Source: a virus. Taken from it: a DNA stretch of 26,584 bases. Below the pieces are notes generated by a model. The model was given only the letters and a program-made list of their open reading frames with translations. It was not told the origin of the DNA and did not search any database. Within the stretch, counting starts at the first letter, position 1. Every line of letters begins with the position of its first letter. Shown here in pieces: positions 2,434-18,594 of the stretch. Made by a program: the position numbers and the translations under genes. Location: IMG/VR virus record IMGVR_UViG_3300030047_000110, positions 1 to 26,584 of that record, one strand, 5' to 3'.

Positions 2434-2587
2434 AAATCTGCCTCTGTCTGTGATACATCACCGAGATTAGTATCCGCTGTGTGTCACTGCCTGTTTTATC
2501 CTCTTTTATCGCTTGTAAAAGGACTTGGTACATTTTGCGAGTCCGTGCCATTTTAATTATGTAATCAATTGTTTTTTGTGGGTCCAT
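2420..2587 (-). CDS. Small hypothetical protein (55 aa)
   Basis: I chose the ATG at 2585-2587 because AAGGAA lies just upstream; the longer open frame above it runs through the radical SAM gene and looks like shadow. The product starts MDPQKTIDYIIKMARTRK and is basic and helical. It overlaps the end of the radical SAM gene by 23 bases and the next gene by 14 bases, the tight packing typical of a real operon member. I do not recognise a family. Confidence 0.55.
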   Translation of the reverse strand: MDPQKTIDYIIKMARTRKMYQVLLQAIKEDKTGSDTQRILISVMYHRQRQIYGNK

Positions 2588-3416
2588 TTGATTCCTTATA
2601 TTTCCTAGCTTCTGTAAACAGGATATAGGGATTAGCCCACACCCTTTGAAACTGTCTCCATTCCCTGTTTGTCTCTCCTGTCTTGTCCCTCCAAAGCATC
2701 GCCATAGGATAGAACCCGGCATCAATCGTCTGGTGCATCCTGGCTAATGCCTGGGACATCGTATCTTTCGGCCAACCACAAAGGACATAAGCCCTGAGCG
2801 CGTGCGAATTCTCTTTATACCCCGCTTGTCTCAATAGCTTTCCTGCTTCAACCAACGGCTCTAAATCATCTTGGGTGTCATACGCAAAAAACATTTGCTG
2901 TGTCTTGATTTTCTTCAACTCTACTGCTTGCCATAGCTTTAATCTCTTTGCTTCTAAACCACCAGTAAACACCGGTTTGTTTTTCTGCCTCTCCAACATG
3001 CTTAACACAGATTTAATGTGATCGTCAGAACACGCTAATAAATTGTCATCTAGCACATTCCAACCATCAACAATCGGCAATTCCCTAACCGTGTCCCCTT
3101 CCCTCTTCCACACCGAACAGAACCAGCATTTATTAGGGCATCCCCTGCTTGTGATTGTGTAACCGTTTCCGATGTACTGACCGCTGATAAATGCCTCTGA
3201 CCTCTGTCCAGTTGCTGGTCCTCCAATTGACACAGGGGCAACTACTCGCCATTGATCCGCAAGAGACTCCGCTAAAGGTAAGTCCCATGAGAACGTGACT
3301 GAAATATCTATCCTGTCTGCAAAATCAGTCTTCTCTGGCCCAACGCCAATTCTTACTAACTCATCAATTGGGGTTGCTCTTGTCTTATGTGGAAATACTC
3401 TCAATATCTTTTCCAA
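2565..3416 (-). CDS. Phage radical SAM protein of unknown substrate
   Basis: The 283-aa protein carries the radical SAM cluster motif CPNKCWFC (C93, C97, C100, CxxxCxxC) that binds a [4Fe-4S] cluster and SAM. Flanking blocks (SIGGPA near 64-68, TITSRGC at 87-93, VLDDNLLACS near 121-130, FTGGLEAKRL) resemble a radical SAM group I recall from phages and prophages of anaerobes; its reaction is unknown to me. The start is a TTG at 3416 with AGAGGA eight bases upstream; the nearby ATG at 3423 is out of frame. It is the first gene of late block A, 77 bases below a copy of the conserved late-promoter motif, so it is probably expressed with the packaging genes. Confidence 0.85.
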   Translation of the reverse strand: MEKILRVFPHKTRATPIDELVRIGVGPEKTDFADRIDISVTFSWDLPLAESLADQWRVVAPVSIGGPATGQRSEAFISGQYIGNGYTITSRGCPNKCWFCSVWKREGDTVRELPIVDGWNVLDDNLLACSDDHIKSVLSMLERQKNKPVFTGGLEAKRLKLWQAVELKKIKTQQMFFAYDTQDDLEPLVEAGKLLRQAGYKENSHALRAYVLCGWPKDTMSQALARMHQTIDAGFYPMAMLWRDKTGETNREWRQFQRVWANPYILFTEARKYKESNGPTKNN

Positions 3417-3492: not shown

Positions 3493-3505
3493 GATATATA
3501 GCGGC
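3493..3505 (-). promoter_or_regulatory. Conserved late-promoter motif, copy A
   Basis: On the minus strand this reads GCCGCTATATATC. The identical 13-mer occurs at 11101-11113 and 15804-15816 and nowhere else in the window. With copy B the identity extends to 17 bp (3490-3506 and 11098-11114). It lies 77 bases upstream of the radical SAM start and points into late block A. The TATATAT core without a shared -35 resembles extended -10 promoters such as the T4 late type. That it is a promoter is an inference. Confidence 0.6.
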
Positions 3506-3520
3506 TTAAGTATAATACAT

Positions 3521-3549
3521 TTGCTATTCTATATATTTAATTGAATATT
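3521..3549 (+). promoter_or_regulatory. Candidate sigma70-type promoter for the sigma-like genes
   Basis: TTGCTA at 3521-3526 and AATATT at 3544-3549 are separated by 17 bp, 55 bases before the first sigma-like gene. A perfect TATAAT at 3511-3516 is a competing -10 but lacks a recognisable -35. In this AT-rich sequence such matches are weak evidence. Confidence 0.3.
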
Positions 3550-3604
3550 CTAATTTAAGACATACGGATTTAATTAAGAATCCCCGTTTAACCGAGATAA
3601 CTTT

Positions 3605-4144
3605 ATGACAGATACAACAGATATAAATCACCTTTTGACGGATTATGACAAGGCGATTAAACAAATAGCTCTTAAAGTGGCAGGTAAGAACACCTCAATT
3701 CTTGCCGACCTAGAACAAGCTGGGAGAAACCACTTTTGTAAACTCATAAAAACCTATGACTCTAAAAAGGGCAGATTTTGGGCATATACCAGTAAAGCCC
3801 TTGAACGTAAAATGAGAGAGAGCCACGGCGGGTTAATTACTGTCAGTGATAACAGGCGCAAAAAGGTACAGGATTTTGACACCATCCCCGAACATGCAGA
3901 CAATCAGCTTTGGTGCAGTGACAAGGACGCTGATACAGCAGAGTCAGAGATTAATATGCAAAATATCCTGTCCAAAATAGAACTTGAAATAGAGTCAATG
4001 TCTGAGCCCAATAAAACCGCTTTTAAGTCTTACATTATCAGTCTCGAAAAGGGCCAAAAGGGACACCTTAAAAAGGATCAAAAGTTGATATGGGCGGGTC
4101 TGGTTCTAAAATATCGCAATGAGGTAATAGACCTATGGACTTAG
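3605..4144 (+). CDS. Sigma-70 region 2-like phage transcription factor (first of pair)
   Basis: The 179-aa protein has a block at residues about 31-80 that reads like sigma-70 region 2: DLEQAGRNHF, then LIKTYDSKKGRFWAYTSKAL and ERKMRE, matching the family pattern 'DLvQeG..gL..a...fD...G.fstYa...i...m'. A variable acidic stretch follows (about 87-115), then helices without an obvious region 4 helix-turn-helix. It is one of only three plus-strand genes. Its TAG overlaps the start of the next gene by 10 bases, so the two are co-translated. The expected role is to redirect host RNA polymerase to phage promoters; the three copies of the 13-bp motif are natural targets. The family match was made by eye. 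Confidence 0.65.
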   Translation: MTDTTDINHLLTDYDKAIKQIALKVAGKNTSILADLEQAGRNHFCKLIKTYDSKKGRFWAYTSKALERKMRESHGGLITVSDNRRKKVQDFDTIPEHADNQLWCSDKDADTAESEINMQNILSKIELEIESMSEPNKTAFKSYIISLEKGQKGHLKKDQKLIWAGLVLKYRNEVIDLWT

Positions 4145-4695
4145 GCATTGTATCCAATGTTGCTTTGCAATCGGGTATCCCCGACATAGCAACTCAAACC
4201 AACCTCTTGAATCAGTACGATGATAGGATCATTGCAAGGGTTAATCAGATTACTTACTGGAACGATAAAAGCGATTGTTACCAAATCGCCAGACTCGCAT
4301 TTTTAGAAGCCTGTCAGAAACACAATCCTAAATATGGAAGTCTTTGGACATTTGCCGGGTTAATCATTAATCAGAGGGTACGTAATTTTATGTACCACTA
4401 TTCGACATCGATAACTTGTCCTTGGGGTAAGACTGTTGAGACTAAATTATTACAGGATATCTTTGGCACAGAAGACAATGAGAAAAAAGAAGCAGAGAAG
4501 GTCATGGCGATTAAGAATCTGATAGACACGATGAAAGTTAGAACCTGTCTAATTAAAAACAGATACCAACGTCAAAAGGCATTGGAATATCTAAGCGGAA
4601 AAGACATTAACAACAGGCACCTCAGAATACGAGTAAGGAAAGCAATTCTAGCCGTCTGTGAAGACCTAAGACTTGATTACCTTTTGTTACTCTGA
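4135..4695 (+). CDS. Sigma-70 region 2-like phage transcription factor (second of pair)
   Basis: The 186-aa protein has a segment at residues 49-84 (YQIARLAFLEACQKHNPKYG, then SLWTFAGLIINQRV) that aligns without gaps to residues 37-72 of the preceding protein. Q, R, F, K, G and W coincide, and aromatics are conserved at the region 2.3 position. The two genes are probably diverged duplicates. A basic C-terminal stretch (about 140-170, ending RHLRIRVRKAI) could be a degenerate region 4 or a polymerase- or DNA-binding tail. GAGG lies 11 bases before the ATG at 4135. The gene end overlaps the convergent membrane-protein gene by 9 bases. It may be an alternative sigma or a co-activator of the first one. 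Confidence 0.55.
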   Translation: MDLGIVSNVALQSGIPDIATQTNLLNQYDDRIIARVNQITYWNDKSDCYQIARLAFLEACQKHNPKYGSLWTFAGLIINQRVRNFMYHYSTSITCPWGKTVETKLLQDIFGTEDNEKKEAEKVMAIKNLIDTMKVRTCLIKNRYQRQKALEYLSGKDINNRHLRIRVRKAILAVCEDLRLDYLLLL

Positions 4696-5103
4696 GTAGT
4701 CCTTAACCGTGTCCGCTGTGCTCTGTATAAATGTTGAAGCCTTATCGATCTGGTGTGTATAGATAGTAGCAAGACCTAAAAGCGTAATGACGATACCAAG
4801 GGTGATAATAACGGTTCTCATATCTGCAATAAGAGCCTTATAAAGTTGATTCATTAAACCCTGTGGGGCTTGGGGTACTTCTGTTTTTTTAGCTTCAAGT
4901 TCTGCTTCTTCTTTTATGTCTTCCTGCCTCAACATCAACAAGGTATATATACCCTTTGTGATTGTCTGGATGAGTGAGTTCAAAGAATCGTGTGCGGGGC
5001 AAGCGTTAGCTGGTCTAGGCGTATTCTGCGCCTTATCCTGAGCTCGTGTTAGTTCTTCCATTGCTTGACCGATAATCTTTATTAACTGTTCTTTCTCGCC
5101 CAT
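4687..5103 (-). CDS. Single-span membrane protein, possible lysis-related protein
   Basis: The ATG at 5103 is preferred over the longer frame (5136) because GAGAGG sits seven bases upstream. The 138-aa product has a charged, helical N-terminal half (EKEQLIKIIGQAMEELTRAQ), a glutamate/lysine-rich linker near 60-78, and one strong membrane segment at about 97-115 (VIITLGIVITLLGLATIY). About 20 residues follow it. It is the last gene of the tail operon, a common place for holins or spanins. One internal span with a long soluble N-terminus does not match a holin class I can name, so lysis is only a possibility. Confidence 0.7.
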   Translation of the reverse strand: MGEKEQLIKIIGQAMEELTRAQDKAQNTPRPANACPAHDSLNSLIQTITKGIYTLLMLRQEDIKEEAELEAKKTEVPQAPQGLMNQLYKALIADMRTVIITLGIVITLLGLATIYTHQIDKASTFIQSTADTVKDYSE

Positions 5104-5154
5104 ATAAACCTCTCTTCTAAAATGTTGTTGAATCAAAATATTATCTAGTTTTTG

Positions 5155-6180
5155 CTAGGCTTCGAAATCGTAATCGATTACCCACCACATACAGGAAATC
5201 ACAAGCCCTGCCTGTCTCATACCGCTTTCCCCTGTTCCACTGTTTTGGGCAGGGATACTTGACCAAGGCAGTTGATCTGCAAATCCCCAGTCTGTGATAG
5301 GACCCATTACCGGGACCGATTTTGAGGTTGCTGTCACGCCTGTAAAAACTTGATCAATAACGTAGTGACCTTCTATCCAGTTGGGATTTCCGAAATTGTA
5401 AAAATCGAAGGTGCTAAACAGGGTTGCCATGTTGGCATTATCTATCCTGTAAACCGTCGTTATAGTCTTAGGGTCTGCTGTCATGCCTGTAATGATTTCT
5501 GCGGGACTGTAGCAATACCAAACCGTTTGGTCTATTGGGGTTCCTGCCGTATTTTTGCTACGCCAGATTGCAAGCATAGGCTCAGCGGTACTATTTTCAA
5601 ATGCTGGAACGGACGGGATTAAGGTAGGATCTCCGTATGGCCCTGTGCTGTCGCCAATAGCAATTTTGCGCATATGGTCAATATCCCAAGAGGTGTGGGT
5701 TACAACCCTCGTTAAGGCTGAAAGGGCTATCTCCAAATCCTTGAAAAGCCAAGGCCCGGCTAGGTCTTTAGGTTGTATCTTGCCCTTGGTTGTCCAGTTG
5801 GAATAATCAGGCCATTCATCAACGGGAGTTTGTCCATTGGGCATTCTATGCCAACCGTGATTACCATTATGCCAGGGCAAGCCAGCAACTGACATAAAGG
5901 TTTCTGTGTTTGGAAAGGTTGAAATCAATACGCCGTCTGCAACCTTGTCCAAACCCGCATTGCAAAATCTTGTGCATAACGACTCGATCTCAGCTTGGCA
6001 GGTTTGAACAAAGTCGTAGACACTTACCCTGTCAGTGTCAAAGCTTGTGATATGCAACAACTCTTCAAGTGTGCAAGGGGCACCAACTGCCGCAATTCTC
6101 TTGTTTAATGCAACGGCGATTTCTTTGGCGATTGCTAGGTCTTGCCAACTGGTATCAACGGTTATAGGGCTAAAGCTCAT
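5155..6180 (-). CDS. Distal tail or tail-tip protein (unknown family)
   Basis: The 341-aa protein is rich in tryptophan and aromatic residues. It has a helical N-terminus (WQDLAIAKEIAVALNKRIAA) and a beta-rich remainder with no motif I recognise. Segments such as HNGNHGWHRMPNG and GNPNWIEGHYV suggest a globular, possibly carbohydrate-contacting fold, but that is only an impression. The start overlaps the upstream stop (TAATG at 6180), indicating coupled translation. It lies downstream of the tape measure with two smaller proteins, so it is most likely a tail-tip or adsorption protein. No lysozyme or amidase catalytic motif is visible. Confidence 0.7.
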   Translation of the reverse strand: MSFSPITVDTSWQDLAIAKEIAVALNKRIAAVGAPCTLEELLHITSFDTDRVSVYDFVQTCQAEIESLCTRFCNAGLDKVADGVLISTFPNTETFMSVAGLPWHNGNHGWHRMPNGQTPVDEWPDYSNWTTKGKIQPKDLAGPWLFKDLEIALSALTRVVTHTSWDIDHMRKIAIGDSTGPYGDPTLIPSVPAFENSTAEPMLAIWRSKNTAGTPIDQTVWYCYSPAEIITGMTADPKTITTVYRIDNANMATLFSTFDFYNFGNPNWIEGHYVIDQVFTGVTATSKSVPVMGPITDWGFADQLPWSSIPAQNSGTGESGMRQAGLVISCMWWVIDYDFEA

Positions 6181-6692
6181 TACACAAGGTATCCACGGTC
6201 GATTGATAATTTACCATCAGCACCAACACCAAGTAACAACTTGTCATCCTCTGTTTCAAACGCTCTAACCGTTGCTTTATCAACAGTCTTAACCAAGATG
6301 GTACAGGTAAAAATGCCTGAGTCTGTAATAATATTGTGGGTCACTTCCTCATATCCAAGAGGGATTGAGGGTATCTCTGATGTAGTAACGACAAGCTTGT
6401 GTTTATCACTGGAGTCAACGGTGATCCCCGTAACGATTGGTTGAGGATTTGTATAGGTTTGCTCGGTACTGGATATCGTGATGTCACTACCAGCAGGGCC
6501 GATATACCTGATAACAAAGCCCTTGCCGTTTAGCTGTAATGGCTTGTCGATTACAATATTGGTGCCGTCACCTCTGATCGTCTCAATGACATTGGCAGTT
6601 TTTTCGAGAGTATCGTGTAAAGGAATTTGACACAGAGGCACACCACGATTAAACCTCTTGAACCAACCGAATATATTTTCGCTGTATGACAT
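6180..6692 (-). CDS. Distal tail-region protein (170 aa, unknown)
   Basis: The 170-aa product begins MSYSENIFGWFKRFNRGV and is mostly beta-prone (alternating hydrophobic strands such as FVIRYIGPAGSDITISS). It ends in DKLLLGVGADGKLSIDRGYL, which resembles the repeats seen in phage fibre or baseplate proteins. The start lies three bases after the upstream stop with no separate ribosome site, so it depends on coupling. A structural role in the tail tip is inferred from order (tape measure, 100 aa, 170 aa, 341 aa). Confidence 0.7.
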   Translation of the reverse strand: MSYSENIFGWFKRFNRGVPLCQIPLHDTLEKTANVIETIRGDGTNIVIDKPLQLNGKGFVIRYIGPAGSDITISSTEQTYTNPQPIVTGITVDSSDKHKLVVTTSEIPSIPLGYEEVTHNIITDSGIFTCTILVKTVDKATVRAFETEDDKLLLGVGADGKLSIDRGYLV

Positions 6693-6695
6693 AGT

Positions 6696-6998
6696 TTAAG
6701 CCTCAACAGGTACTTGATACTCATAAATTTGGAAGACACTGACTTCGACTTCGTACATATGCCCACCAACCCAACGACATTGGGCATTGATACCAGCCAT
6801 AGGGTTATGCACTGCGGTTTGACAAGCTAATGCTGCGGTTTTGGTCATTCCGACATAAGCATATCTGCCCGTTGTTATGTCGTTTAGGATTTGACACCAT
6901 ACACCTTGTAGGGCGTGATATCCGATTGACACCGTGTAAGTAGTAAGGGGTTCATACTCTTGTTTGTTGGTGTCGCTATATTGTGTAATTAGAGCCAT
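6696..6998 (-). CDS. Small tail-region protein (100 aa)
   Basis: The start is the ATG at 6998, preceded by GGAGGG at a good distance; the longer frame to 7067 lies inside the tape measure gene and has no such site. The product (MALITQYSDTNKQEYEPLTT...) is compact and beta-rich, with two cysteines in AALACQTAVHNP and INAQCRW. It begins one base after the tape measure stop. I do not recognise the family; position suggests a distal tail component. Confidence 0.75.
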   Translation of the reverse strand: MALITQYSDTNKQEYEPLTTYTVSIGYHALQGVWCQILNDITTGRYAYVGMTKTAALACQTAVHNPMAGINAQCRWVGGHMYEVEVSVFQIYEYQVPVEA

Positions 6999-6999
6999 T

Positions 7000-8802
7000 T
7001 TATAACCCTCCGGATTCGGACGTTGCAGCCTTGATGGTTTTAGCAATTTCTTCCGTTGCTTTAGCAATCCGTTCCTGCTTCTTTAAGATTTCTTCCTGCA
7101 TCTTTTCTTGTGCGATTTGAAAATCCTCAGCTTGGTTCTTTGCCCAAATTGCCTTGTTTTGATTATCCAACAACTCTTGATCCTTTTTACGTGCAAGGGC
7201 TAGAGTCTCTTTATCTTTTTTGGACATATGCAAACCGGGTTTATTCTCTTTCCCTGCCAGCACTTCTAAACGCCTTTCCATTTTGTTATTTTGTTTCTCG
7301 GTGGCTTTATCCTTCTGTGCTTGTTCCTCATGATTTTTAATGTAGTCAGAGGCAGTCTGTGCGGCAAGGTCTGCAATTTTACGCTCGGTGTCGGCTAGGT
7401 CTTGGCGTGCCTCTGCCTCTTGATCTGCGGCTTTCTTTATGTCCTTGGTAGTCTGTAATATTTCAAGATTCAATCCGTCAATAGCATCCTGTGTGTGCTC
7501 GTTCTCAATCGCTTTTTCGGCGGCCTTGGCTTTACCCTCTGCTAAAGTTTTTTGTTTATCTATAGCTTTCTTATCTAAGACAGCTTTCTCATTTAAATCT
7601 GCGGCTTCGTTCTCTGCGGCCATGGCTTGAACTTCGTTAATCCTTTTCTGATTTTCAAACTTTTCTTTCATTGCTTGGACAATCTGCTTTGACGTTTTTG
7701 GAGTCTCATCCCAACTGCCACTAGCCCCATGATTTTTGGATTCTTCTGCCTGAGTATTAGTATTTCCAACACCGCCAAAACCAACACCAATAACAGGTAC
7801 GATTTTAGCGTTAGGGTCTTTCTTATTAAGCCAATCGGGAGTTAAGGCATTTTTAATTGCTTCCCCAACGTAATCGGCACCCTCTCTAAAACTAGCAACG
7901 ATCAAATCACCAACATCAGAAAGAGTATCTGTAAATTGGCCCTTGGTTGTCAGACTATTGAAAATGTCCTTAGCGAATGCGGCACCGTCTTTAAGACTCT
8001 TGGTAAAACCCTTGAAGCTGTCACTCTCAACAAATGCGGCAATCTTGTCCCCTGCATCGGAAAATGTCTGGCCTAAATTCAAACCCTCGATAACGGCAAG
8101 GATAAGCTTTGTCCTTACCTCTTTAATCTTGCCTGTGAATTCATCCCAACCACCACCTGTGGATTTGAGATTTGCTTTGAGCTGTTCCTGTCCTGCGTTG
8201 ATCATCTTTTGCGCCGCGTCAAAAGCAGACATCGTGTCTGTAGCCTCACGGACTCCGGGACTAAAACGCTTGAATCCCTCAATGTCACCATCAAGAGCAC
8301 GGGCAACAGCACGCATAGCGGTACTACCCTCTATACCAAGTGCCTCTAAGCCTTTAACCGACCTAACGGCACCGTCCATATTTTGAGCACTCACACCAAT
8401 TGCGAGTAATCCTGACACTAGGTTTTTAATCTCTGTACCACTTCCGCCCACGTCTTTTTTAATCGAACTTGCTAAGTCTCTCATCTGTGTAGCAAGCTCT
8501 GGAGTGTATGCACCTACACTGCGCAATGTTGCATCAAGTTTGAGGTTAGCCCGCTCTGCGGCTAAAGCACTTGTTACCATCTCAGACAATGAGCCGACAA
8601 CCCACTTTAGTCCACCCTTTGCAATGTCATACAGTGCCATGCCCCAAGCGACAGTTGTGGCTTTGAGCCCACCCATACGGCCCTCGGTTGTTTTAACGGC
8701 CTCTCCCATACTCGACAGGGATTGTTTTGCTTGGTCTGTTCCCGTTTTGTCATAAGAAGAGGAAATCTTGAATCCTACGCTATAGCCCGGTTCTGTTGCC
8801 AT
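7000..8802 (-). CDS. Tail tape measure protein
   Basis: The 600-aa protein sets siphophage tail length. The N-terminal third has the typical TMP pattern: VGFKISSSYDKTGTDQAKQ, a GG..a...a.W hydrophobic helix near 45-70, and repeated VSGLLAIGVSAQNMDGAV-type segments with ALGIEGSTAMRAV. The C-terminal 200 residues are almost pure charged coiled coil (alanine, lysine and glutamate rich, about 370-590). It is short for a TMP; using the family rule of about 1.5 angstrom per residue this implies a tail near 90 nm. The start overlaps the upstream stop as TAATG at 8802. It is the longest tail gene in the window. Confidence 0.85.
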   Translation of the reverse strand: MATEPGYSVGFKISSSYDKTGTDQAKQSLSSMGEAVKTTEGRMGGLKATTVAWGMALYDIAKGGLKWVVGSLSEMVTSALAAERANLKLDATLRSVGAYTPELATQMRDLASSIKKDVGGSGTEIKNLVSGLLAIGVSAQNMDGAVRSVKGLEALGIEGSTAMRAVARALDGDIEGFKRFSPGVREATDTMSAFDAAQKMINAGQEQLKANLKSTGGGWDEFTGKIKEVRTKLILAVIEGLNLGQTFSDAGDKIAAFVESDSFKGFTKSLKDGAAFAKDIFNSLTTKGQFTDTLSDVGDLIVASFREGADYVGEAIKNALTPDWLNKKDPNAKIVPVIGVGFGGVGNTNTQAEESKNHGASGSWDETPKTSKQIVQAMKEKFENQKRINEVQAMAAENEAADLNEKAVLDKKAIDKQKTLAEGKAKAAEKAIENEHTQDAIDGLNLEILQTTKDIKKAADQEAEARQDLADTERKIADLAAQTASDYIKNHEEQAQKDKATEKQNNKMERRLEVLAGKENKPGLHMSKKDKETLALARKKDQELLDNQNKAIWAKNQAEDFQIAQEKMQEEILKKQERIAKATEEIAKTIKAATSESGGL

Positions 8803-9527
8803 TATTGCACCTGTATTTTAGCTTCTAATGCTTTTGTTTTGATTACCAACAGAGTCCTTGCATATTCGGCATGCGCTTTAAGGTTCGCCTCTTTAGATAC
8901 GACTCCCTGATTGCGTTGATACTTCCTGAGAATCCCAAAAAGCCTGGACTCACTAATCAACTGCATATCGGAGAGACTCAAACCTAAACCAGAGGCGATT
9001 AACTCATCAATAATCAACTGTCTTAAATCTGCTGTCGCTGTCTCTGTTACTTCTTTTTCCGTCTGTCTCTCTGACGGCTCGGGATAAATATCACTGCCGC
9101 TGTCATTACCCCATAAAGCAAACTGTAAAGCCGTTCTAAGCTGCTCTGAGGTTACAGGTAAGCACTTATGCCAATCCTGTATAGCGTTGACTACAGAGGC
9201 TCTATCAAGCATTTCTGGACGTTGGAAAAATCCTCTAGTCTGAGCATGGGCACAAGCGAACAAGAGGCAAGACGTGTATGTCTCTGCATCTTGTGCAAAC
9301 CATCTCATTGGGTATGTGTCAACCCAAGCCTCAGATTGCAGGGTCGGCTCGTAGATCGGGATATCCCCAGCCCACCCGATCCTTGGGGCGGACATGATAT
9401 TGCCACTATTAGCACTGCGTTCCACCCTAAGCCCAAGCTCGTTGAGTTTGATAATGTCAGACGGGCAGAGGCTAAGGCCCTCTGCTTCCATGTCTGATAT
9501 GTCACCCATAGCCATTTCGCTAATCAT
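8802..9527 (-). CDS. Protein in the tail assembly chaperone position (241 aa)
   Basis: It lies between the major tail protein and the tape measure gene, where siphophages keep tail assembly chaperones (lambda gpG/gpGT, often made by frameshift). The product is helical; the middle has a segment WFAQDAETYTSCLLFACAHA followed by RGFFQRPEMLDRASVVNAIQ, and a charged linker near 150-165. I see no clear second overlapping frame or slippery site, so if it is a chaperone it appears to be a single product. The start at 9527 has no ribosome site but is four bases below the upstream stop; an ATG a few codons in is equally possible. Confidence 0.7.
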   Translation of the reverse strand: MISEMAMGDISDMEAEGLSLCPSDIIKLNELGLRVERSANSGNIMSAPRIGWAGDIPIYEPTLQSEAWVDTYPMRWFAQDAETYTSCLLFACAHAQTRGFFQRPEMLDRASVVNAIQDWHKCLPVTSEQLRTALQFALWGNDSGSDIYPEPSERQTEKEVTETATADLRQLIIDELIASGLGLSLSDMQLISESRLFGILRKYQRNQGVVSKEANLKAHAEYARTLLVIKTKALEAKIQVQ

Positions 9528-9531
9528 AAGA

Positions 9532-10215
9532 TTATGCGGTTGGCTCTGTTGACTCTAAGGACTTAACTAACGTAACAGTCCAAGAAGGATAATCGCTGTC
9601 AGGATTAGACACTGTAAGAGGTGCAGTGATATCCCAATTGGTACCAGCGGTGATAACAGGGACTGCTGATCCTGACTGTACAATCGTAGCTGAGACTGTA
9701 GCCTTTGCGCCTGACACGTCATGACTGATTACGTCACCTTCTTGCGTCGCTGTTGTTACGTCACAATCTGCGGTGTAAGTGCATTCGTTTAAATCTGCGC
9801 CTGTGCCAGAGAGGGTAAATGCTGAGTCAATAATCTGTGCTTTGTGCCTGACGCTGCAAACGACAGTGCCTAAATCAACAGTGCTAGAAACAGTGCCAGC
9901 GGCTTGTATAGTGATTCCGTTAGCACTTAGTTCGGGGGCTTTACCAGCACTGGTTTTGATAGTGATAGATTTTAAAACAACCTTGTCTGTGCCTACTGTG
10001 GTTAAATCACCAAGGGTAATTGTCTTAGATAAACTTGCCGCTAATTTGTAATCAGAACTAGGTGTCTTTTGTTCGCCGAAAACTTCACGGGCTACGATAT
10101 CGCCTCTATCGTTCACCGCCTCTTTTGTCTGAGCTGTCTTGTTTTCTGTTGAACTAATCAAAGTCAATGCTGTATCTGCTAATCCTACGTAATCTACTGG
10201 GGTACTGAATGCCAT
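9532..10215 (-). CDS. Major tail (tube) protein
   Basis: The ATG at 10215 has GAGAGGA eight bases upstream, one of the stronger sites in the operon. The 227-aa product begins MAFSTPVDYVGLADTALTLI, the kind of start seen in tail tube proteins. It is almost entirely beta-prone, threonine/serine/alanine rich with few aromatics. The order terminator, tube, chaperone, tape measure supports the call. The last 80 residues (TNWDITAPLTVSNPDSDYPS...) may be an added Ig-like surface domain. The assignment rests on composition and order rather than a diagnostic motif. Confidence 0.7.
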   Translation of the reverse strand: MAFSTPVDYVGLADTALTLISSTENKTAQTKEAVNDRGDIVAREVFGEQKTPSSDYKLAASLSKTITLGDLTTVGTDKVVLKSITIKTSAGKAPELSANGITIQAAGTVSSTVDLGTVVCSVRHKAQIIDSAFTLSGTGADLNECTYTADCDVTTATQEGDVISHDVSGAKATVSATIVQSGSAVPVITAGTNWDITAPLTVSNPDSDYPSWTVTLVKSLESTEPTA

Positions 10216-10275
10216 ATATAATCCTCTCTTAAAATGTCTCTTTTGAGACTGTGTTAGCGCCTCAATAGAGGCTGG

Positions 10276-10728
10276 TTAAATCTCTGTATCAACAGGCGTT
10301 AAAATGACACCTGAAAATGTGTAATTGAGAACTGAAGACCAAAGCTGATTAGCCGAATCAAAGCTTGGTTCTTCTCCTTCTTCACCTGTGAATCCGTCTA
10401 CCCTAAATGTGTCTGTTGTAAGCAAGTCACAGGGGATGTCAATATTTCCTTCCCAGTCTTCGAGACAGTTGATAACTGGGTCGGTCATTGCTGCTAAAAG
10501 GTCGGTGTCTTTACCATCCTTCTTATCGGCCATGATTGTAATTTTGCAACTAATATCGACTATCGGGTTGTTGGTCGATCTACGCTTACGTTGTCCCATT
10601 TTAACTAGTACACACGTCCTGTCTCTTAGCTGCTCTGTGGGCACGATATAACCGTAGACTCTATCATCGGTAATGTCTGACAAAGCCTCTACAATCAACT
10701 GTTCTAACTTCTGCTCTAAATATGCCAT
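10276..10728 (-). CDS. Tail terminator or tail completion protein
   Basis: The 150-aa protein lies between the HK97-gp10-like gene and the major tail protein, the place of the tail terminator (lambda gpU / HK97 gp11-like) that caps the tail and joins it to the head. The pattern is consistent: an N-terminal helix (YLEQKLEQLIVEALSDITD), then strands with CVLVKMGQRKRR and VDISCKITIMA, and a helix with LLAAMTDPVINCLEDW. No decisive motif is visible. The ribosome site is weak. Confidence 0.6.
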   Translation of the reverse strand: MAYLEQKLEQLIVEALSDITDDRVYGYIVPTEQLRDRTCVLVKMGQRKRRSTNNPIVDISCKITIMADKKDGKDTDLLAAMTDPVINCLEDWEGNIDIPCDLLTTDTFRVDGFTGEEGEEPSFDSANQLWSSVLNYTFSGVILTPVDTEI

Positions 10729-10753
10729 ATTAAATTCTCGCTTATGCTACAAA

Positions 10754-11068
10754 TCAAATTACACTCGCTTTAAATTTCAAAAGTAGTTTTGCTAACGCGC
10801 GTCTTAAAAATGCTACAGGTCTAATCTTCTTCGTTCCAAATTCCATATATCCAGCGTATGGGGTTTTGCTACCGATAAAAACGCTATCCCCAAGGTCAAC
10901 AAGTTCAATGCTGTTTTTAAGCTGTCCAGTTTTAACAGGTGCTAAGTTCTGCGCTTCTAGTTGGACATTTTTACAAGCTCGTTTAAAATCCCTTTTGATT
11001 CGTCTTTCCATTTGTTCAAAGAGATTTGGTTTTATACCCGTTGTTTTTATGCTCAAATTTAAAGACAC
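10754..11068 (-). CDS. HK97 gp10-like head-tail connector protein
   Basis: The 104-aa protein matches the HK97-gp10 family: a helical, basic N-terminal half with VQLEAQNLAPVKTGQLKNSI, then the signature TPYAGYMEFGTKKIRPVAFL, followed by RRAL. These proteins form part of the neck or tail completion. It is the first gene of late block B; a copy of the 13-bp late motif lies 33 bases upstream, so its transcript would have a very short leader. Confidence 0.85.
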   Translation of the reverse strand: MSLNLSIKTTGIKPNLFEQMERRIKRDFKRACKNVQLEAQNLAPVKTGQLKNSIELVDLGDSVFIGSKTPYAGYMEFGTKKIRPVAFLRRALAKLLLKFKASVI

Positions 11069-11100
11069 AATTTATCCGTTATTACGTGGTCTGCTTATAA

Positions 11101-11113
11101 GATATATAGCGGC
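11101..11113 (-). promoter_or_regulatory. Conserved late-promoter motif, copy B
   Basis: The minus strand reads GCCGCTATATATC, identical to copies A and C. It lies in the 57-bp gap between the DUF1353 gene and the gp10-like gene, 33 bases before the latter's ATG. A gap in an otherwise tightly packed operon, containing this motif, suggests a new transcript start for the tail genes. Flanking bases match copy A over 17 bp. Confidence 0.6.
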
Positions 11114-11125
11114 TCAGACTACCTT

Positions 11126-11581
11126 TTAGACTTTCTCGATTTTGATAAATGCTCTGTACTTATCAATATGCTCGGGAGTCTGTGACCAACAAGACCAACC
11201 GAAAGACCTTACAGCAGTCCAAATAGCTAGTCTTTTTGCTTGGTCTGCACCATATACCCCTGCTACGTTTTGAAAGAAACTGTCTGCTGATGGTCTATCG
11301 AATGGGTCTAAATGTACGCAATAAAACAGGTCATGAAACAAGGCTGGAACAATAATATCATGACTCATCTTGTCACCGACAATTGACCGCATAATCCTAG
11401 GAATTGAAGCCCCGTCATAATCAAAGCCTTTTAAGGCAGTAATCAAATAGCCGTTGTATCTAATCTTAAAATCTTCCAGCAACCACCAACCCCCATCCTT
11501 ATCTGGATAGTAGAATGGTTGAAGCTTAGGGAAACTAATACCAGCGTCTTTACCAAGACAATCTATGACTTGGAAATCCAA
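11126..11581 (-). CDS. DUF1353 family protein
   Basis: The 151-aa protein matches DUF1353 by its core GFDYDGASIPRIM, then VPALFHDLFYC and RPSADSFFQ, with conserved D, H and AD residues that suggest a small hydrolase or metal-binding site. The biochemical role of the family is not established; it is found in many phages and prophages. It starts with TTG at 11581, one base after the stop of the lipoprotein gene, and has no ribosome site of its own, so it is probably translated by reinitiation. It is the last gene of late block C. It may be worth testing as a lysis enzyme, since no endolysin is recognised elsewhere. Confidence 0.8.
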   Translation of the reverse strand: MDFQVIDCLGKDAGISFPKLQPFYYPDKDGGWWLLEDFKIRYNGYLITALKGFDYDGASIPRIMRSIVGDKMSHDIIVPALFHDLFYCVHLDPFDRPSADSFFQNVAGVYGADQAKRLAIWTAVRSFGWSCWSQTPEHIDKYRAFIKIEKV

Positions 11582-11582
11582 A

Positions 11583-11855
11583 TTACTTTAGACCCGTACT
11601 GAGTTTAGCGGCTTCAAGACCTGCTTCAACGCCTGCCTTGATACCCGCCTCTAAATTGGCTTGTCCACCATCGGTTTTGTAGCCTGACAAGCTAGCATTG
11701 ATAAGGCCGTTGGTGTCTGCTGTTACTGATAATGCCTGAAGTTCCGTCGGCCAAAGAACGGCTATACGCCATGCTGACCAATCCCTGCCTTTTGCGTGAT
11801 CTAAAACGCATCCTTGAAGAGTTAATGCCAGTGCTAAAATTGCTAATGTCTTCAT
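11583..11855 (-). CDS. Small predicted lipoprotein
   Basis: The ATG at 11855 is chosen over the GTG at 11867 because AGGTGG lies eight bases before it. The 90-aa product has a type II signal peptide: MKTLAILALALTLQ followed by the lipobox LQGC (lipidated Cys16). The mature part contains WSAWRIAVLWPTELQAL and a C-terminal alanine/glycine helix (IKAGVEAGLEAAKLS). It could be an Rz1-like outer membrane spanin, a surface-exclusion lipoprotein or a structural moron; no inner membrane partner is adjacent. Its presence indicates a host with lipoprotein processing. Confidence 0.75.
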   Translation of the reverse strand: MKTLAILALALTLQGCVLDHAKGRDWSAWRIAVLWPTELQALSVTADTNGLINASLSGYKTDGGQANLEAGIKAGVEAGLEAAKLSTGLK

Positions 11856-11871
11856 ATTTTCAACCACCTAT

Positions 11872-12708
11872 TTAGTATGTTGCGTACAGTGCCGATATTT
11901 CTTCCACCGTCAATTCCCTGTTGTAAATCCTGATATCGTACATTGAGCCATTGGCGTAGTAACTCAGTGACGGGCTTGCCCCAATCGTTACTGGTGCGGC
12001 AGTGATTATGCTTGTTGTAAGGTTGTCGGAATCGTTTCCGTTGTGGTAGTTGTTACCGTCCGCATTCAAGTATATGCCGACACCGGCACCAGTGGCTGTG
12101 CCATCGTACGTGACCACGACAAAGTTCCAGTTGCCGTCAGCAATGTTGAAGCTTCCACCTGCGTAAGATTGTAATTCTGATTCACCAAAATATGTACCAC
12201 CGTTAAGTTGGAGATACATACCGCCGTACACACTAAAAATAGACCATCCCGTCTGTGTGTGACTAGTGTCTTGGTTTCCAATCAGAATCTCATATGCAGG
12301 ACTTGTCTTAACCCAGAAACTGACAGAGAAAGGCGTGTCTGCATCAAGGATTGGTGCGTTTGCAACACTGACATAATCAACCAGCCCGTCAAATATAAGC
12401 ACCTGTCCAAACCTTGTATCTGTAACGCTGTTGTCACTGGTGTAGTTGTATACACCGTCTGTCCATACACCGTTGCCAGTAGATCCAACAGTATCAGTAA
12501 CCGTTGAGTTGTTGGCGTGATCATCCATCTTATACCAAGCGATTACACCGTCAGGAATGACAGGAGCAACATACGCAGTCCAAATCTGAGTTTCTCCGAT
12601 GTAAGCCTTTGCAAGCGGAGTGTCGCCGACATACATTTTGGAGTAATCGGGAAGTGCTCCAAACGCCGACAGGGACAAAAGACAAAATGCTATGATGTTT
12701 CTGAGCAT
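11872..12708 (-). CDS. Secreted LamG (concanavalin-like) lectin domain protein
   Basis: The 278-aa protein has a Sec signal peptide (MLRNIIAFCLLSLSAFGA, cleavage after about residue 18). A short repeat-like linker follows (MYVGDTPLAKAYIGETQIW). A Laminin G-like jelly-roll domain covers about residues 54-278: GVIAWYKMDDHANNS, TPFSVSFWVKTS, GNWNFVVVTYDG and a final SMYDIRIYNRELTVEEI. LamG_3 domains usually bind sugars. GAGG precedes the ATG at 12708. A signal peptide is unusual on a virion protein. It may instead be exported to the cell surface, or the leader may have been kept from a host gene. The GDT..aYiGetqiW motif also occurs in some phage tail proteins. Confidence 0.8.
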   Translation of the reverse strand: MLRNIIAFCLLSLSAFGALPDYSKMYVGDTPLAKAYIGETQIWTAYVAPVIPDGVIAWYKMDDHANNSTVTDTVGSTGNGVWTDGVYNYTSDNSVTDTRFGQVLIFDGLVDYVSVANAPILDADTPFSVSFWVKTSPAYEILIGNQDTSHTQTGWSIFSVYGGMYLQLNGGTYFGESELQSYAGGSFNIADGNWNFVVVTYDGTATGAGVGIYLNADGNNYHNGNDSDNLTTSIITAAPVTIGASPSLSYYANGSMYDIRIYNRELTVEEISALYATY

Positions 12709-12712
12709 TTGA

Positions 12713-13609
12713 TTACCTCGTGAGATAGAGAGTTGTCGAAATCTTGGGTGTCAATGCGTCATACTCAGCCTGCGTCAACGATTTGATCCGGGTAATCTCA
12801 ACACTTGTAACCATTCCGTTGGTTGCGCTGTGGAGTGCCGTAATCTGCTCTTGTAGGTTGTTGGTGCTTATCCCTATAGCTTCTACAGCCTGACTCAATT
12901 CTTGAACGCTGGCATAGATTTTGAAACAGTTTGTCTGTACCTCACTTATCACGGGATAACTGATATGCACACTGCCATATTCACCGCTGTTGCCTGCTGT
13001 TAAATCAAAAGGAGGTGTGCCGTATCCCGACCACATTGAGCCGTCTGTGAATTCCATGCTGATACTGTAATTTCCATTCTCACCCGTACCTCTGATTAAC
13101 CAATCGCCATTTGGTACATAAGTAATATCGTTGAAAGTTGACGGATTAGCCCACGGTTGATGTACTTCACCGATAGCGGTTGAAATCCAATCGAAGGTGA
13201 AAATCAGATTAGCGGTATCCGGTTCAATAACCGTAACAACCTCGTACATTAGTAGATTTGTCGCTGTATCCACCGAGACAAAGTGGTTTGAATCGACACT
13301 AATAATCTTACTGTTATCATAACTCGGGATTACAGGTACAGGAATCAACGCTATAGCCTGTTCAAGTGCTGTAGTGGTGACATAGGATGGTTTATCTGCT
13401 GTCCATACAGGGTCTGTTTCTACAGGTACGGGGATGGTTATAATTGCTTCTGTGACAATCCCGGTTACTGTCTGATAATTAGGCTTAGTGTCAATCTGTG
13501 CCTGTAAATTGCTTTGGACATTGTAAAGCTGATTACTGTTAACCAAACTCACCGCGTTTACCATGGAAACTAGAAACAGAAAAAAGAAAAGGGTTTTAAA
13601 AACTGTCAT
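12713..13609 (-). CDS. Signal-peptide-bearing fibre-like protein
   Basis: The 298-aa protein starts with a strong signal peptide (MTVFKTLFFFLFLVSMVNA, AxA-like cleavage after residue 19). The rest looks like a phage fibre or adhesin. A proline/threonine-rich stem (IITIPVPVETDPVWTADKPS, then ALIPVPVIPS) is followed by a beta-rich domain (about 110-235) and a C-terminal coiled coil (AVEAIGISTNNLQEQITALH). It ends with LTQAEYDALTPK and TLYLTR, a C-terminal motif common in phage minor structural proteins. AGAGGA precedes the ATG at 13609. It lies among head-tail connector genes rather than after the tape measure, an unusual place for a fibre. Confidence 0.7.
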   Translation of the reverse strand: MTVFKTLFFFLFLVSMVNAVSLVNSNQLYNVQSNLQAQIDTKPNYQTVTGIVTEAIITIPVPVETDPVWTADKPSYVTTTALEQAIALIPVPVIPSYDNSKIISVDSNHFVSVDTATNLLMYEVVTVIEPDTANLIFTFDWISTAIGEVHQPWANPSTFNDITYVPNGDWLIRGTGENGNYSISMEFTDGSMWSGYGTPPFDLTAGNSGEYGSVHISYPVISEVQTNCFKIYASVQELSQAVEAIGISTNNLQEQITALHSATNGMVTSVEITRIKSLTQAEYDALTPKISTTLYLTR

Positions 13610-13612
13610 AAA

Positions 13613-13927
13613 TTAGGTCCTCTTGGAAAGTGCGAATATGCTGTGTTGATATCCGTTTGGTGTGGTTACTGTTTTAGGCTCTGCCTGAATGCTGTAGGTA
13701 ATGCCGTCAATTGCTACCTGCCAAGTCTCGTTGATAACTACTCTATAAGCAGGGCTGAGTTTACAGGTCAATTCGTACTGATAAGTTACCCCGGCAAATT
13801 TACCGTATTGACTTTGAGAATCACTGACACCGACAAACCAAACATTAATCAAAAACTCTGGTGTATAAATGGTTTTTGGATTGGTCGTATTGGGCTTTAA
13901 AAAACAGGCTTTGAAATTCTGTAACAT
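13613..13927 (-). CDS. Head-tail joining (stopper) protein candidate
   Basis: The 104-aa protein follows the adaptor-like gene and precedes non-virion-like insertions, in the position of SPP1 gp16-type head closure proteins. It is beta-rich, with YQYELTCKLSPAYRV, WQVAIDGITYSIQAEPKT and a final SIFALSKRT, a pattern seen in small beta-barrel stoppers. No diagnostic motif is visible, so the assignment depends on length and order. The ribosome site is weak (GGAT). Confidence 0.6.
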   Translation of the reverse strand: MLQNFKACFLKPNTTNPKTIYTPEFLINVWFVGVSDSQSQYGKFAGVTYQYELTCKLSPAYRVVINETWQVAIDGITYSIQAEPKTVTTPNGYQHSIFALSKRT

Positions 13928-13930
13928 AAT

Positions 13931-14422
13931 TTACATCCAGATATGGAGTTGACGGAAAGGCGAAAGGGCGGATTTATAACCGGATAAAATATCTGTGTGT
14001 TGAACACCATCAGCAAGCGTATAGGTTAGGCCCGTCATTGACTCAGACTTGCACAAGTTGCTTTGTCCTGCGTTGTCGATACTGGCTTTTATCATCTCAG
14101 CAACGACCTTTTGTAAACCAACTGGAACAGGGGTAGCACTAATACGCCATGAGTACCCGCAATATGACTCGACCAAATCGCTGACACCAACGGCGAAGAA
14201 ATTAAACTCAGCCTCTGTCATTCCTAAATCAGTTTGGCGTGTAGCAATGAGATAGGTTTCTGTTGAGATAAGGGATTCGCCAACAACAGCGATATAAGGA
14301 GGAGGATTTAAAAGACCGCCGTCTGGACTGATATCGAGATTTAGATTATCACCTGTACCTGTGACTATGACGGGATGATAAAGACCATCTGAGGGATTAA
14401 AAATGTAAGTTGGATTCGGCAT
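13931..14422 (-). CDS. Head-tail adaptor (gp6/gp15-like) protein candidate
   Basis: The 163-aa protein lies directly after the capsid gene. Its core is helical: TYLIATRQTDLGMTEAEFNF, then VSDLVESYCGYSW and VPVGLQKVVAEMIKASIDNA, resembling HK97 gp6-type adaptors that sit under the portal. The N-terminal 45 residues form a separate proline/glycine-rich strand region. The ATG at 14422 has AAGGAG nine bases upstream. A sigma70-like promoter (14450-14478) and the capsid gene terminator lie just upstream, so it can be transcribed independently of the capsid gene. Confidence 0.65.
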   Translation of the reverse strand: MPNPTYIFNPSDGLYHPVIVTGTGDNLNLDISPDGGLLNPPPYIAVVGESLISTETYLIATRQTDLGMTEAEFNFFAVGVSDLVESYCGYSWRISATPVPVGLQKVVAEMIKASIDNAGQSNLCKSESMTGLTYTLADGVQHTDILSGYKSALSPFRQLHIWM

Positions 14423-14449
14423 TAGGATTTACTCCTTTTAGATTTGAAA

Positions 14450-14478
14450 TTCATACAGGCTATATAAAGGCCTGTCAG
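14450..14478 (-). promoter_or_regulatory. Candidate sigma70-type promoter for the connector genes
   Basis: On the minus strand CTGACA (14473-14478) and TATGAA (14450-14455) are separated by exactly 17 bp. They sit between the capsid gene terminator and the adaptor gene, whose ATG is 28 bases further down. A promoter here would restart transcription after the terminator. It is unlike the 13-bp late motif. Confidence 0.4.
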
Positions 14479-14483
14479 TTAGC

Positions 14484-14513
14484 AAAAAGGGCTAGTCTTT
14501 TACACCTAGCCCC
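14484..14513 (-). terminator. Rho-independent terminator after the major capsid gene
   Basis: The minus strand forms a perfect 7-bp stem GGGCTAG/CTAGCCC around a 10-base loop, followed by TTTTTG. It lies 33 bases after the capsid stop. It would cut most transcripts after the capsid gene and so raise capsid over connector expression. Confidence 0.75.
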
Positions 14514-14545
14514 TTCTGTCTTTCTATATTTCAATCACCGCTATA

Positions 14546-15688
14546 TTAGGCCTGCTTAAGGTAAGCGAACGGTGCATATTCAACACCATCAATTGTTTTC
14601 TTAACACCAGCGATAGCACCACCAACGAACACGCGGACAGCGTAAGCCTTGCAATCCTTCAAGAAACCAGCATTTGTATTCGGTTCCACTTCAACACCAG
14701 TGCTCACAAATTCGTAATTCTCAGGAAGAGAACCGAATACCAACGGCTTTGCAGCAGGGACATTCACAGAAGTAAATACCTTGTATCCTTTAAGAGTCTT
14801 AACTGCGCCATCTGTGATTTTCTGACCATTAAGATTGGTTTCATCGGCAAGAGCCGTAACCAATAAACGCCAGTAAGCAGAGTTACAATAGAAAGCGTTC
14901 TTGTCGGAGTCAAAGACCTTACCCATAACGATATCAATCTTATCCTCTTCAACTGTACCAATAGCGGTAACAGTCACAGCGGTGGACTTGGCACTAGTAC
15001 AAATTCCTTCAAATCCAGAATTGGAAGCAAATGCACCGGCGAACATACCATTCTCAATTGCGCGAACTGCCTTATTGTGTATCTGGTTAGTAACGCTCTG
15101 GTCTGCTCCATTCTGCATACGCAAAATATCGTTAGAAACAAGAACGGTACCAAATATTTTACCAAGATTTACCTTCGTGACTTTAAGAGGAGCGTCAAGC
15201 TCGGATTCCGTTGCTTCTGCTGTATAGCCAGTAATTGCAACATCGCCATCACCGCAAGCACCATCATAAAGCACGTTATAAGTTAACGCCTCTGTTTGTG
15301 CTTGCTTGGCCTGATTGATAATTGGGGAATCAATAATAGCTGTAACGATCGTACCGCTTTCAACTGGTGAAAGTGTAGCCGCTCCAGTAATAGCTTTGGT
15401 TTCCAAATTGGAAATTGCCTTAGAAATAATATCCATGTTTTTTTCTCCTGCTGTCTTTGTGACAGCCTTAAATGATTTTTGCTCTACCTTGATCTTGTCT
15501 GCTTCTGCCTTTACTAGTTCCGTTTCTGCTTCTGCTTGATCTTGTGCTTCCAGGTCTGCGGTGTACATTTCCGCGCTCTGGTCGGCAATCAAAGCATCAC
15601 AAACGCTCTGGTCTTCTACTTCTAAAATTGCGTCAACCTCATAGGGCTGATTTTCGATTGTAACTGGCTTAAGTATTTTGAGTTTCAA
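14546..15688 (-). CDS. HK97-fold major capsid protein with scaffold-like N-terminus and internal start
   Basis: The full frame is 380 aa. Residues 1-84 start with an SH3-like piece (KPVTIENQPYEVDAILEVED) and continue as a charged coiled coil (about 45-75), like the HK97 delta (scaffold) domain. The capsid fold follows (SPVESGTIVTAIIDSPII, AVRAIENGMFAGAFASNSGF, and a C-terminal YAVRVFVGGAIAGVK). The full start is TTG at 15688 with AGGGA upstream. In frame, an ATG at 15436 (residue 85) has AGGAGA eight bases before it, a stronger signal than the TTG, so a 296-aa short form is likely also made. The late motif copy C lies 116 bases upstream and a terminator follows. Confidence 0.88.
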   Translation of the reverse strand: MKLKILKPVTIENQPYEVDAILEVEDQSVCDALIADQSAEMYTADLEAQDQAEAETELVKAEADKIKVEQKSFKAVTKTAGEKNMDIISKAISNLETKAITGAATLSPVESGTIVTAIIDSPIINQAKQAQTEALTYNVLYDGACGDGDVAITGYTAEATESELDAPLKVTKVNLGKIFGTVLVSNDILRMQNGADQSVTNQIHNKAVRAIENGMFAGAFASNSGFEGICTSAKSTAVTVTAIGTVEEDKIDIVMGKVFDSDKNAFYCNSAYWRLLVTALADETNLNGQKITDGAVKTLKGYKVFTSVNVPAAKPLVFGSLPENYEFVSTGVEVEPNTNAGFLKDCKAYAVRVFVGGAIAGVKKTIDGVEYAPFAYLKQA

Positions 15689-15803
15689 GATTTATCCCTG
15701 GGGTTTTACCCCTGTGCCTTGGCTTTGCCATAGGTCTTGGTGTATCTCAGCTAGATATTGGCTCTGTGAGGTGTAAGCACAGTATCCCGTATCTCTGCTA
15801 CCT

Positions 15804-15816
15804 GATATATAGCGGC
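15804..15816 (-). promoter_or_regulatory. Conserved late-promoter motif, copy C
   Basis: The minus strand reads GCCGCTATATATC, as in copies A and B, 116 bases before the TTG start of the capsid gene. It is the only copy whose immediate downstream flank (AGGTAGC) differs from the CTTA of copies A and B, which limits the conserved core to 13 bp. Confidence 0.58.
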
Positions 15817-16071: not shown

Positions 16072-17826
16072 ATGAAGAACAAATCAAGTGTAGGGTACGG
16101 ACGGACCAGCAGTGAAGACGCCAGCGGTGATAAAGTCAGCGTTGATGTTCAAAAACAGGACTACCTTAAAGCCTGTACTAAAAACAACTGGGTTAATCTT
16201 GGTTGGTTTGAAGACCGTGATACAAGTGGGCGGTGTTATGAGGCTGGAAGTCCATTAATCCCGCTTGATAAAGTGACAAGCGATTACCTGAGTAAGAACA
16301 GTCTCAAAAAACAGACTCGCTTAGGACTCAAAAAGGCACTTGATACCAAAGCGGATATCTTTGTCGTACGTGACATTACCCGCTTTGCCCGTCCATTATC
16401 CGGTTCAATGCTTAGTTCACACTTGCAGAACCGCTTGAACGAATCCAATACAGTGCTTTGGAGTCTTGACCAAGGCGAGATTAAGAAAGACTTAAGTCAG
16501 AAGATTCTAAAGTCGGTTCAAGACGAGCTGTATGATGATGATATCAAGCGCAAGACGGCACAGTCTAAAGCATCAAGACTCAGCAACAGGGATAAAGGAC
16601 TGCCTTACACCGACTGTTACTGCTTAGGTTTCAGGTCTTATAAGGGAAAGGTGGAGGTTATCCCTGCCGAACTTGAAACGGTTAAGAAAATCTTCCGGTT
16701 GTATGAAGCAGGTCAAACCATCCGAGGAATTACTGTCAAACTTAATCAAGACGGGAACAAACCGCTAGAAGCAAAGTGTTTCGGGCGTAGGTCTGTTACC
16801 TGTATCTTAAAACGGTCTTGGTATGCTGGTTATCAGTTGAACAGTATCGGCACTTACATTGAATCTACCGAGTTTAGCCATTATGCTGTGGTAAGCCTCA
16901 ATACTTGGCTCGGAATACAGCAACGCCTCAACAAGAACGAAAGCTCTGGTGTTAAAAGAGAAAACAAGTTCGCCCATGTCCTAGCCGGATTAGTAAGATG
17001 TGGTTATTGCGGAGCTTTGATGGTTCCCTACCGCGCCACGAATGCCCACGGCTTGCCCCTGCGCTATTACCGCTGTAAGAACACCTATAATGATGCGGTG
17101 ACTACTGGACATGACTGCAACAGTGCTATGATACGAGAATCTTATTCAGAACTAGCAGCTATAGACCAGAAAGACAGGTACATAGGTAAGGGTGTAATCA
17201 CCGACAAATGCTTAAACGGACTGGTAGAATTCATGTTCCCGTGGGTTTTGGCTGGTTACATCAAGCAACTGACAGAAGCGGATATCACACCTGAGTTGAA
17301 AGACAAGAAAACCAAGCTCGGGTTTCAACTGGAAGCTCTGAAAGCTAAGAACGTTTCACGATATAAGGACTACGAAAACAAACTGTTTGACAAAAGCACC
17401 TATCAAACCCTGACACAAGAATCAAAGGCTATAGAGGAAAGTCTGAATAACCAGCTCAAAGAAGTCTTAGCAAGTATCACAACTGCCGCTAATCGCTCCA
17501 CAATTGCGTTTAAAGACGTGGAACAGCTTGACCTGATAAACCATAGCACCTATACCCAGCTCATAAAGCAGGTGGTTTCTGGAGTGTCTGTGTATCAGGA
17601 CCGAATTGAGATTACAGTAACCGACTCTGATAAGTCTTATACCTTCCCTAGACTCACCAAAGGCAAGACCCGCAGCTTACCCGCTTACAAGGTTGCCGTG
17701 GTAATAGACAAGACTGATAAACTCGTTCCCAAGATTCTAATCGAATACCAGTATCCTAAAACCGTCTGTCAAGCTTCTGATGTCTACGCCAGAACCAACC
17801 TGCTTATCAAGACAGTCAATAACTGA
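16072..17826 (+). CDS. int: Large serine integrase
   Basis: The 584-aa protein integrates phage DNA at a host attachment site. The N-terminal resolvase domain has R11 and the nucleophile serine in GRTSSED (S13, or S14), and the arginines of VVRDITRFARP (about 98-108). A recombinase domain follows (about 165-290; GFRSYKGKVEVIPAELETVK, then IFRLYEAG). Next is a zinc ribbon with C310, C313, C335 and C349 (LVRCGYCGAL, YYRCKN, HDC). A coiled coil (about 405-475) interrupts the C-terminal DNA-binding part. AAGGAA precedes the ATG. The length is normal for the family. It is on the strand opposite to its neighbours and has its own terminator. No excisionase (RDF) is recognised. Confidence 0.93.
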   Translation: MKNKSSVGYGRTSSEDASGDKVSVDVQKQDYLKACTKNNWVNLGWFEDRDTSGRCYEAGSPLIPLDKVTSDYLSKNSLKKQTRLGLKKALDTKADIFVVRDITRFARPLSGSMLSSHLQNRLNESNTVLWSLDQGEIKKDLSQKILKSVQDELYDDDIKRKTAQSKASRLSNRDKGLPYTDCYCLGFRSYKGKVEVIPAELETVKKIFRLYEAGQTIRGITVKLNQDGNKPLEAKCFGRRSVTCILKRSWYAGYQLNSIGTYIESTEFSHYAVVSLNTWLGIQQRLNKNESSGVKRENKFAHVLAGLVRCGYCGALMVPYRATNAHGLPLRYYRCKNTYNDAVTTGHDCNSAMIRESYSELAAIDQKDRYIGKGVITDKCLNGLVEFMFPWVLAGYIKQLTEADITPELKDKKTKLGFQLEALKAKNVSRYKDYENKLFDKSTYQTLTQESKAIEESLNNQLKEVLASITTAANRSTIAFKDVEQLDLINHSTYTQLIKQVVSGVSVYQDRIEITVTDSDKSYTFPRLTKGKTRSLPAYKVAVVIDKTDKLVPKILIEYQYPKTVCQASDVYARTNLLIKTVNN

Positions 17827-17858
17827 GTAAGAACCTATCAAGGAACAATCCTAACCAA

Positions 17859-18580: not shown

Positions 18581-18594
18581 ATAGGTTCTGTTTC

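Follow-up and report, generated by a model that had tools for sequence, protein, structure and literature searches.

Late promoters of phages and promoters of flagellar genes

In bacteriophage T4, the late promoters are recognized by gp55, a phage sigma factor that lacks the usual region 4 and acts together with gp33 and the gp45 clamp. The promoter itself, TATAAATA, covers positions -13 to -6 (PMC1524935). In phages phiEco32 and 7-11, the phage sigma promoters have the forms TAATGTATA and TGTGATGTTATA, and they were detected through repeats between intergenic regions (PMC4331800). Among the late promoters of the Listeria phage CKA15, extended -10 promoters that lack a -35 have been described (PMC12282133), and the consensus of flagellar sigma-28 promoters is TAAA...GCCGATAA (PMC8325347, PMC2859248).

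Here, we compare with these systems a repeated word of the phage genome IMGVR_UViG_3300030047_000110, which was analysed over its whole length of 26,584 nt (the window). The record carries a 146-bp direct repeat at both ends, with one mismatch, so that the unit measures about 26,438 bp and is either complete or permuted. Both record ends are bridged, at 99.95-100% identity, by another contig of the metagenome of origin (L004/L005), which, judged by this identity, is the same phage and no independent relative. Most of the genes are encoded on the minus strand, the plus strand carrying a serine integrase and two small tandem genes, and intergenic DNA makes up 10.9% of the genome. The sites and the genes around them are the following:

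3493-3505, minus strand, site 1, exact copy of GCCGCTATATATC, candidate late promoter of the radical SAM/terminase/portal block
11101-11113, minus strand, site 2, exact copy of GCCGCTATATATC, candidate late promoter of the tail block
15804-15816, minus strand, site 3, exact copy of GCCGCTATATATC, candidate late promoter of the major capsid gene
2565-3416, minus strand, radical SAM gene, first behind site 1
868-2202, minus strand, terminase large subunit, within the site 1 block
23538-23613, minus strand, long inverted repeat at which the site 1 block probably ends
10754-11068, minus strand, HK97-gp10-like tail gene, first behind site 2
14546-15688, minus strand, putative major capsid gene, so named from its position and a match to PHROG 486 (virion structural protein, 3e-4)
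14484-14517, minus strand, intrinsic terminator (AGAAGGGGCTAG...CTAGCCCTTTTT), 3' of the capsid gene
16072-17826, plus strand, serine integrase

A 13-bp word upstream of virion genes

The first-pass annotation had pointed to three identical 13-bp motifs, and this is what the genome holds: GCCGCTATATATC occurs exactly three times, at the coordinates listed and on the minus strand only, a scan allowing one mismatch adds no further copy, and no other 13-mer is present three times. The remaining GCCGNTAT words, on both strands, fall within genes. As also described before, the sites are intergenic, co-oriented and shortly upstream of virion blocks, at 76 nt from the start codon of the radical SAM gene (3416) for site 1, 32 nt from that of the HK97-gp10-like tail gene (11068) for site 2 and 115 nt from that of the putative major capsid gene (15688) for site 3. 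Behind site 1, the order is radical SAM gene, 74-aa ORF, terminase, portal gene (spanning the record ends), protease/MuF-like head gene and NrdG3-like gene. Site 2 lies downstream of the stop of a DUF1353 gene and upstream of the tail genes. At site 3, the capsid gene is found behind the site as proposed, but the proposed capsid block is probably one gene, followed by the terminator at 14484-14517 (z -4.9; 0 of 200 shuffles fold equally well); because this terminator closes the capsid gene, site 3 would serve a separate unit.

The head gene at 24309-25943 has a prohead-protease-like N-terminal part and a MuF-like C-terminal part (GxE...CxxC...HINCRC), apparently joined. At the end of a late block, 23773-24282 encodes an NrdG3-like anaerobic ribonucleotide reductase activase (92.5 bits, cut-off 151.7), and a reductase gene to match it is absent from the phage.

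Could such a repeat arise by chance? Markov copies of the genome contained 0.013 to 0.06 three-fold 13-mers per genome and, with all DNA counted, a three-fold 13-mer appeared in 1 to 5% of the simulated genomes, which leaves some room for coincidence. In 2,000 simulated intergenic sets, however, the longest word common to three regions measured 8 to 11 bases, compared with 13 in the real set, and a word of 12 or 13 was attained in none of them. Since, moreover, all three copies are intergenic, on one strand and each near the start of a virion block, we consider it quite unlikely that they arose by chance or serve as a repeated site for DNA packaging, replication or recombination and not for transcription.

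Outside the 13 bases, identity among the three sites is no higher than expected by chance, with 5 of 60 upstream columns identical (5.5 expected) and 1 of 40 downstream columns (2.8 expected); no common element lies within these 40 downstream bases, and the earlier statement that no -35 is shared holds over the 60 bases upstream. With the identity limited to 13 bases, a duplicated leader is not favoured, nor is an RNA element or a -35 common to the sites. A structured-RNA reading was not retained, as no Rfam family was found at the sites and the predicted leaders are unlike in sequence and at best fold only a little more stably than shuffles, otherwise less stably. A short and isolated word of 13 bases might also be bound by some other regulator of the phage, activating or repressing, close to ordinary host promoters, with no -10 element involved, and several early genes have no assigned function. 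A site-specific activator, however, would need a second conserved element at a fixed distance, and none is present; the word, in addition, is not a full palindrome and its TATATAT resembles a -10. We therefore regard this explanation as unlikely.

A possible fourth site is located directly behind the capsid terminator:

14459-14471, minus strand, degenerate copy of the motif, GCCTTTATATAGC, identical at 10 of 13 bases

It lies 36 nt upstream of the head-tail adaptor gene and sits in the dyad ACAGGC...GCCTGT. Across all intergenic DNA, read on one strand, 0.5 matches of 10/13 are expected, with P 0.02 for that gap, and as a possible fourth promoter GCCTTTATATAGC is suggestive only.

Between the integrase and the early operon, a stretch of 768 nt (17827-18594) holds no convincing gene. 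On the minus strand, it begins behind a terminator (18580-18559) with GCGGCTATCTGTAACCACGTAAT, a partial motif at 18513, and it ends with a bidirectional terminator (17857-17883); ACCACGTAAT occurs in this stretch and also downstream of site 2. Its folding is not better than that of shuffles, and a noncoding RNA or an attachment region are possible identities. The last gene of the early operon (18595-19071) encodes a small HEAGH metalloprotease-like protein with Peptidase_M41/M50 matches under the cut-off.

Does the word recur in related phages? IMG/VR was queried with the terminase, the capsid protein, sigma A and the protease/MuF protein, one at a time, GTDB contigs were queried with the terminase, and alignments were made of the terminase and radical SAM proteins. 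The same-metagenome fragment aside, IMG/VR, 85,000 genomes, phage and plasmid records and 1,185 further genomes from three phyla yielded no related phage. Beyond the phage itself (L004/L005), the searches brought up nothing but remote terminases (identity about 33% at most) and radical SAM genes shared by horizontal transfer; they are most sensitive to close relatives, so distant kin may exist. The nearest terminase seen, at about 30-33%, is that of L220 (G1113:C12:29000-48000), a genome whose phylum is that of L113 (a Clostridium record); a radical SAM gene of phage type lies about 8 kb away from it, so that the two genes are paired as in this phage. Relatives of the radical SAM gene (PHROG 9298) at 40-60% identity are carried by dozens of IMG/VR contigs that have almost nothing else in common with this phage. 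Judged by this distribution, PHROG 9298 is a horizontally moving phage family of unassigned function, and no exact or one-mismatch GCCGCTATATATC was found at comparable places in the phages that carry it. IMG/VR matches to the motif alone were set aside, being on unrelated contigs and looking like coding-sequence coincidences.

Candidate readers of the word

What could read these sites? Beside site 1, two tandem genes encode sigma-like proteins:

3605-4144, plus strand, sigma-like protein A, 179 aa, region 2 only, from profile matches
4135-4695, plus strand, sigma-like protein B, 186 aa, region 2 only, from profile matches
3511-3516, plus strand, TATAAT, possible host-type -10 for A and B

Both proteins match Pfam Sigma70_r2 under the curated cut-off (A 5e-4, B 2.7e-3). 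Sigma families account for nearly all of their NCBIfam matches, the best being FliA for A (4e-6) and SigI for B (5e-7); A scores 26.8 bits with the FliA family, whose cut-off is 201, and B also matches PHROG 351, a phage sigma family. When the FliA model was searched on the window, a match appeared at 3617-3943 (8e-7). A six-frame search of the window with Sigma70_r2 gave no match, so that the sigma evidence consists of two independent weak matches side by side. No region 4 was detected in A or B by hmmscan, nor by a search of the genome, and its apparent absence is in keeping with that of a -35. A BLAST of A against B gave no alignment, and AlphaFold without an alignment gave models of no use for both proteins.

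Taken together with the placement of the sites, these matches make it probable that GCCGCTATATATC is the core of a -10-only late promoter, read by the host RNA polymerase carrying A, B or both. The proposal that a phage sigma reads the word thus gains partial support, from the co-oriented intergenic copies, the missing -35, the weak sigma matches beside site 1 and the lack of a detectable region 4. That the sites are promoters, that A and B are their readers and that they act late is what we infer, in the following order. Early, the host RNA polymerase would transcribe the replication genes as well as A and B, the latter two from a promoter of their own; that no copy of GCCGCTATATATC is present upstream of A and B themselves counts against the proposal. 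The candidate for the A and B promoter, TATAAT, is without a good -35 and has site 1 inside its upstream spacer, so that late transcription might shut off the A and B genes. A and/or B would join the host RNA polymerase and guide it to GCCGCTATATATC, where TATATAT would be melted as the -10 and GCCGC would be read in duplex form as an extended -10; since no region 4 is detectable in either protein, a -35 would not be used. RNA synthesis would begin 6-7 bases downstream and continue across the packaging/portal, capsid and tail blocks. If the T4 late-promoter spacing is applied to TATATATC, the predicted +1 is about 3487 (G), 11095 (A) and 15798 (G), a purine at all three sites given that spacing, and the predicted leaders measure about 71, 27 and 110 nt for sites 1, 2 and 3.

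The reader might instead be an RNA polymerase of the phage itself. The divergent protein encoded by 21717-23138 shows palm-polymerase-like motifs by eye (EIDMVSAQP, LFGDS, PIHDSIL), has no Pfam match and a weak one to PHROG 4756, and has a distant relative in the 735-kb phage genome LR756501. HDE is usual in DNA polymerase A and HDS is seen in T7-type RNA polymerases; with HDS in place of HDE and no identifiable family, the protein could be a small single-subunit RNA polymerase for which the sites are promoters. However, its gene stands first in the early operon, together with HNH genes, and no other candidate for a replication polymerase is present, which makes a DNA polymerase likelier, and PF00940 and PF00476 both gave no match, the PF00940 control being silent too. 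We give this reading the least credit of all, and hold it to be very improbable.

If GCCGCTATATATC is indeed a -10-only promoter read through A and/or B, the phage would have a complete and very small late regulon, with three or four promoters and two candidate specificity proteins, small enough to be rebuilt from purified parts and belonging to a phage without known relatives. It would also give an example of a region-4-less sigma protein relying on a GC-rich extended -10, and an additional promoter word for the annotation of uncultivated phages.

Comparison with flagellar, T4 and phiEco32-type promoters

The -10 of flagellar sigma promoters in Bacillus has the form GCCGATAT. The 5' part of the motif, GCCGCTAT, agrees with it at 7 of 8 positions and with GCCGATAA at 6 of 8; the probability that a random 13-mer reaches 7/8 to either sigma-28 form is 0.004, other sigma families not being counted. 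As in promoters of the sigma-28 group (FliA, SigD, WhiG), GCCG is followed by TAT, the GCCGC of the motif is closer to the flagellar -10 than to the T4 motif, and protein A finds its best family match in FliA. The differences are that the motif continues as TATATATC and that A has no detectable region 4. The 7/8 and 6/8 agreements would also suit promoters for the flagellar-type factor of the host itself, but TAAA is not found at the expected distance (it lies 15 bases upstream at site 2 only, with no common position among the sites), and we judge this very unlikely.

Membership of A in the FliA/SigD/WhiG group is itself not supported. In E. coli FliA, the residues thought to read GCCG are D81, R84 and R91; when A was aligned with 19 FliA-family proteins (3.5 bits, a weak alignment), these positions corresponded to E, G and an unmatched residue. 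The GCCG-reading residues are thus apparently not kept, which makes true sigma-28 membership unlikely, and the score is below the cut-off and no region 4 was detected. The motif may work like a GCCG-extended -10. A paired or split late sigma, in which the region-2-only A and B would jointly read a GCCG-type extended -10 without a -35, having a flagellar-like preference and different residues, is a tentative and rather doubtful version of this idea; the flagellar-sigma-like DNA preference would, as part of it, have been arrived at or kept.

With T4 late promoters, the sites have in common a short AT-rich -10, the lack of a -35, the position upstream of late genes, a candidate reader without the usual region 4 and a possible purine +1 spacing. 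The likening of the motif to the T4 late promoter is therefore apt as regards the -35, but TATATATC agrees with TATAAATA at only about 6 of 8 positions, and the 13-bp identity begins 5 bases earlier, with a GCCGC that has no T4 counterpart. T4, besides, is a large lytic phage. The phiEco32 and 7-11 systems resemble this one in having a few near-identical words upstream of late genes (9-12 bp in those phages) and a phage sigma as reader, here a candidate one, and also in that the words came to light through a comparison of intergenic regions. They differ from it in the word and in having one sigma with an anti-sigma, whereas two tandem sigma-like genes are present here and an anti-sigma was not found. 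The first-pass suggestion of a previously undescribed regulon is thus fair for the motif, but regulons of this kind are already known from T4, phiEco32 and 7-11: what is new is the word, the tandem sigma-like pair and the phage, and the principle is one already described.
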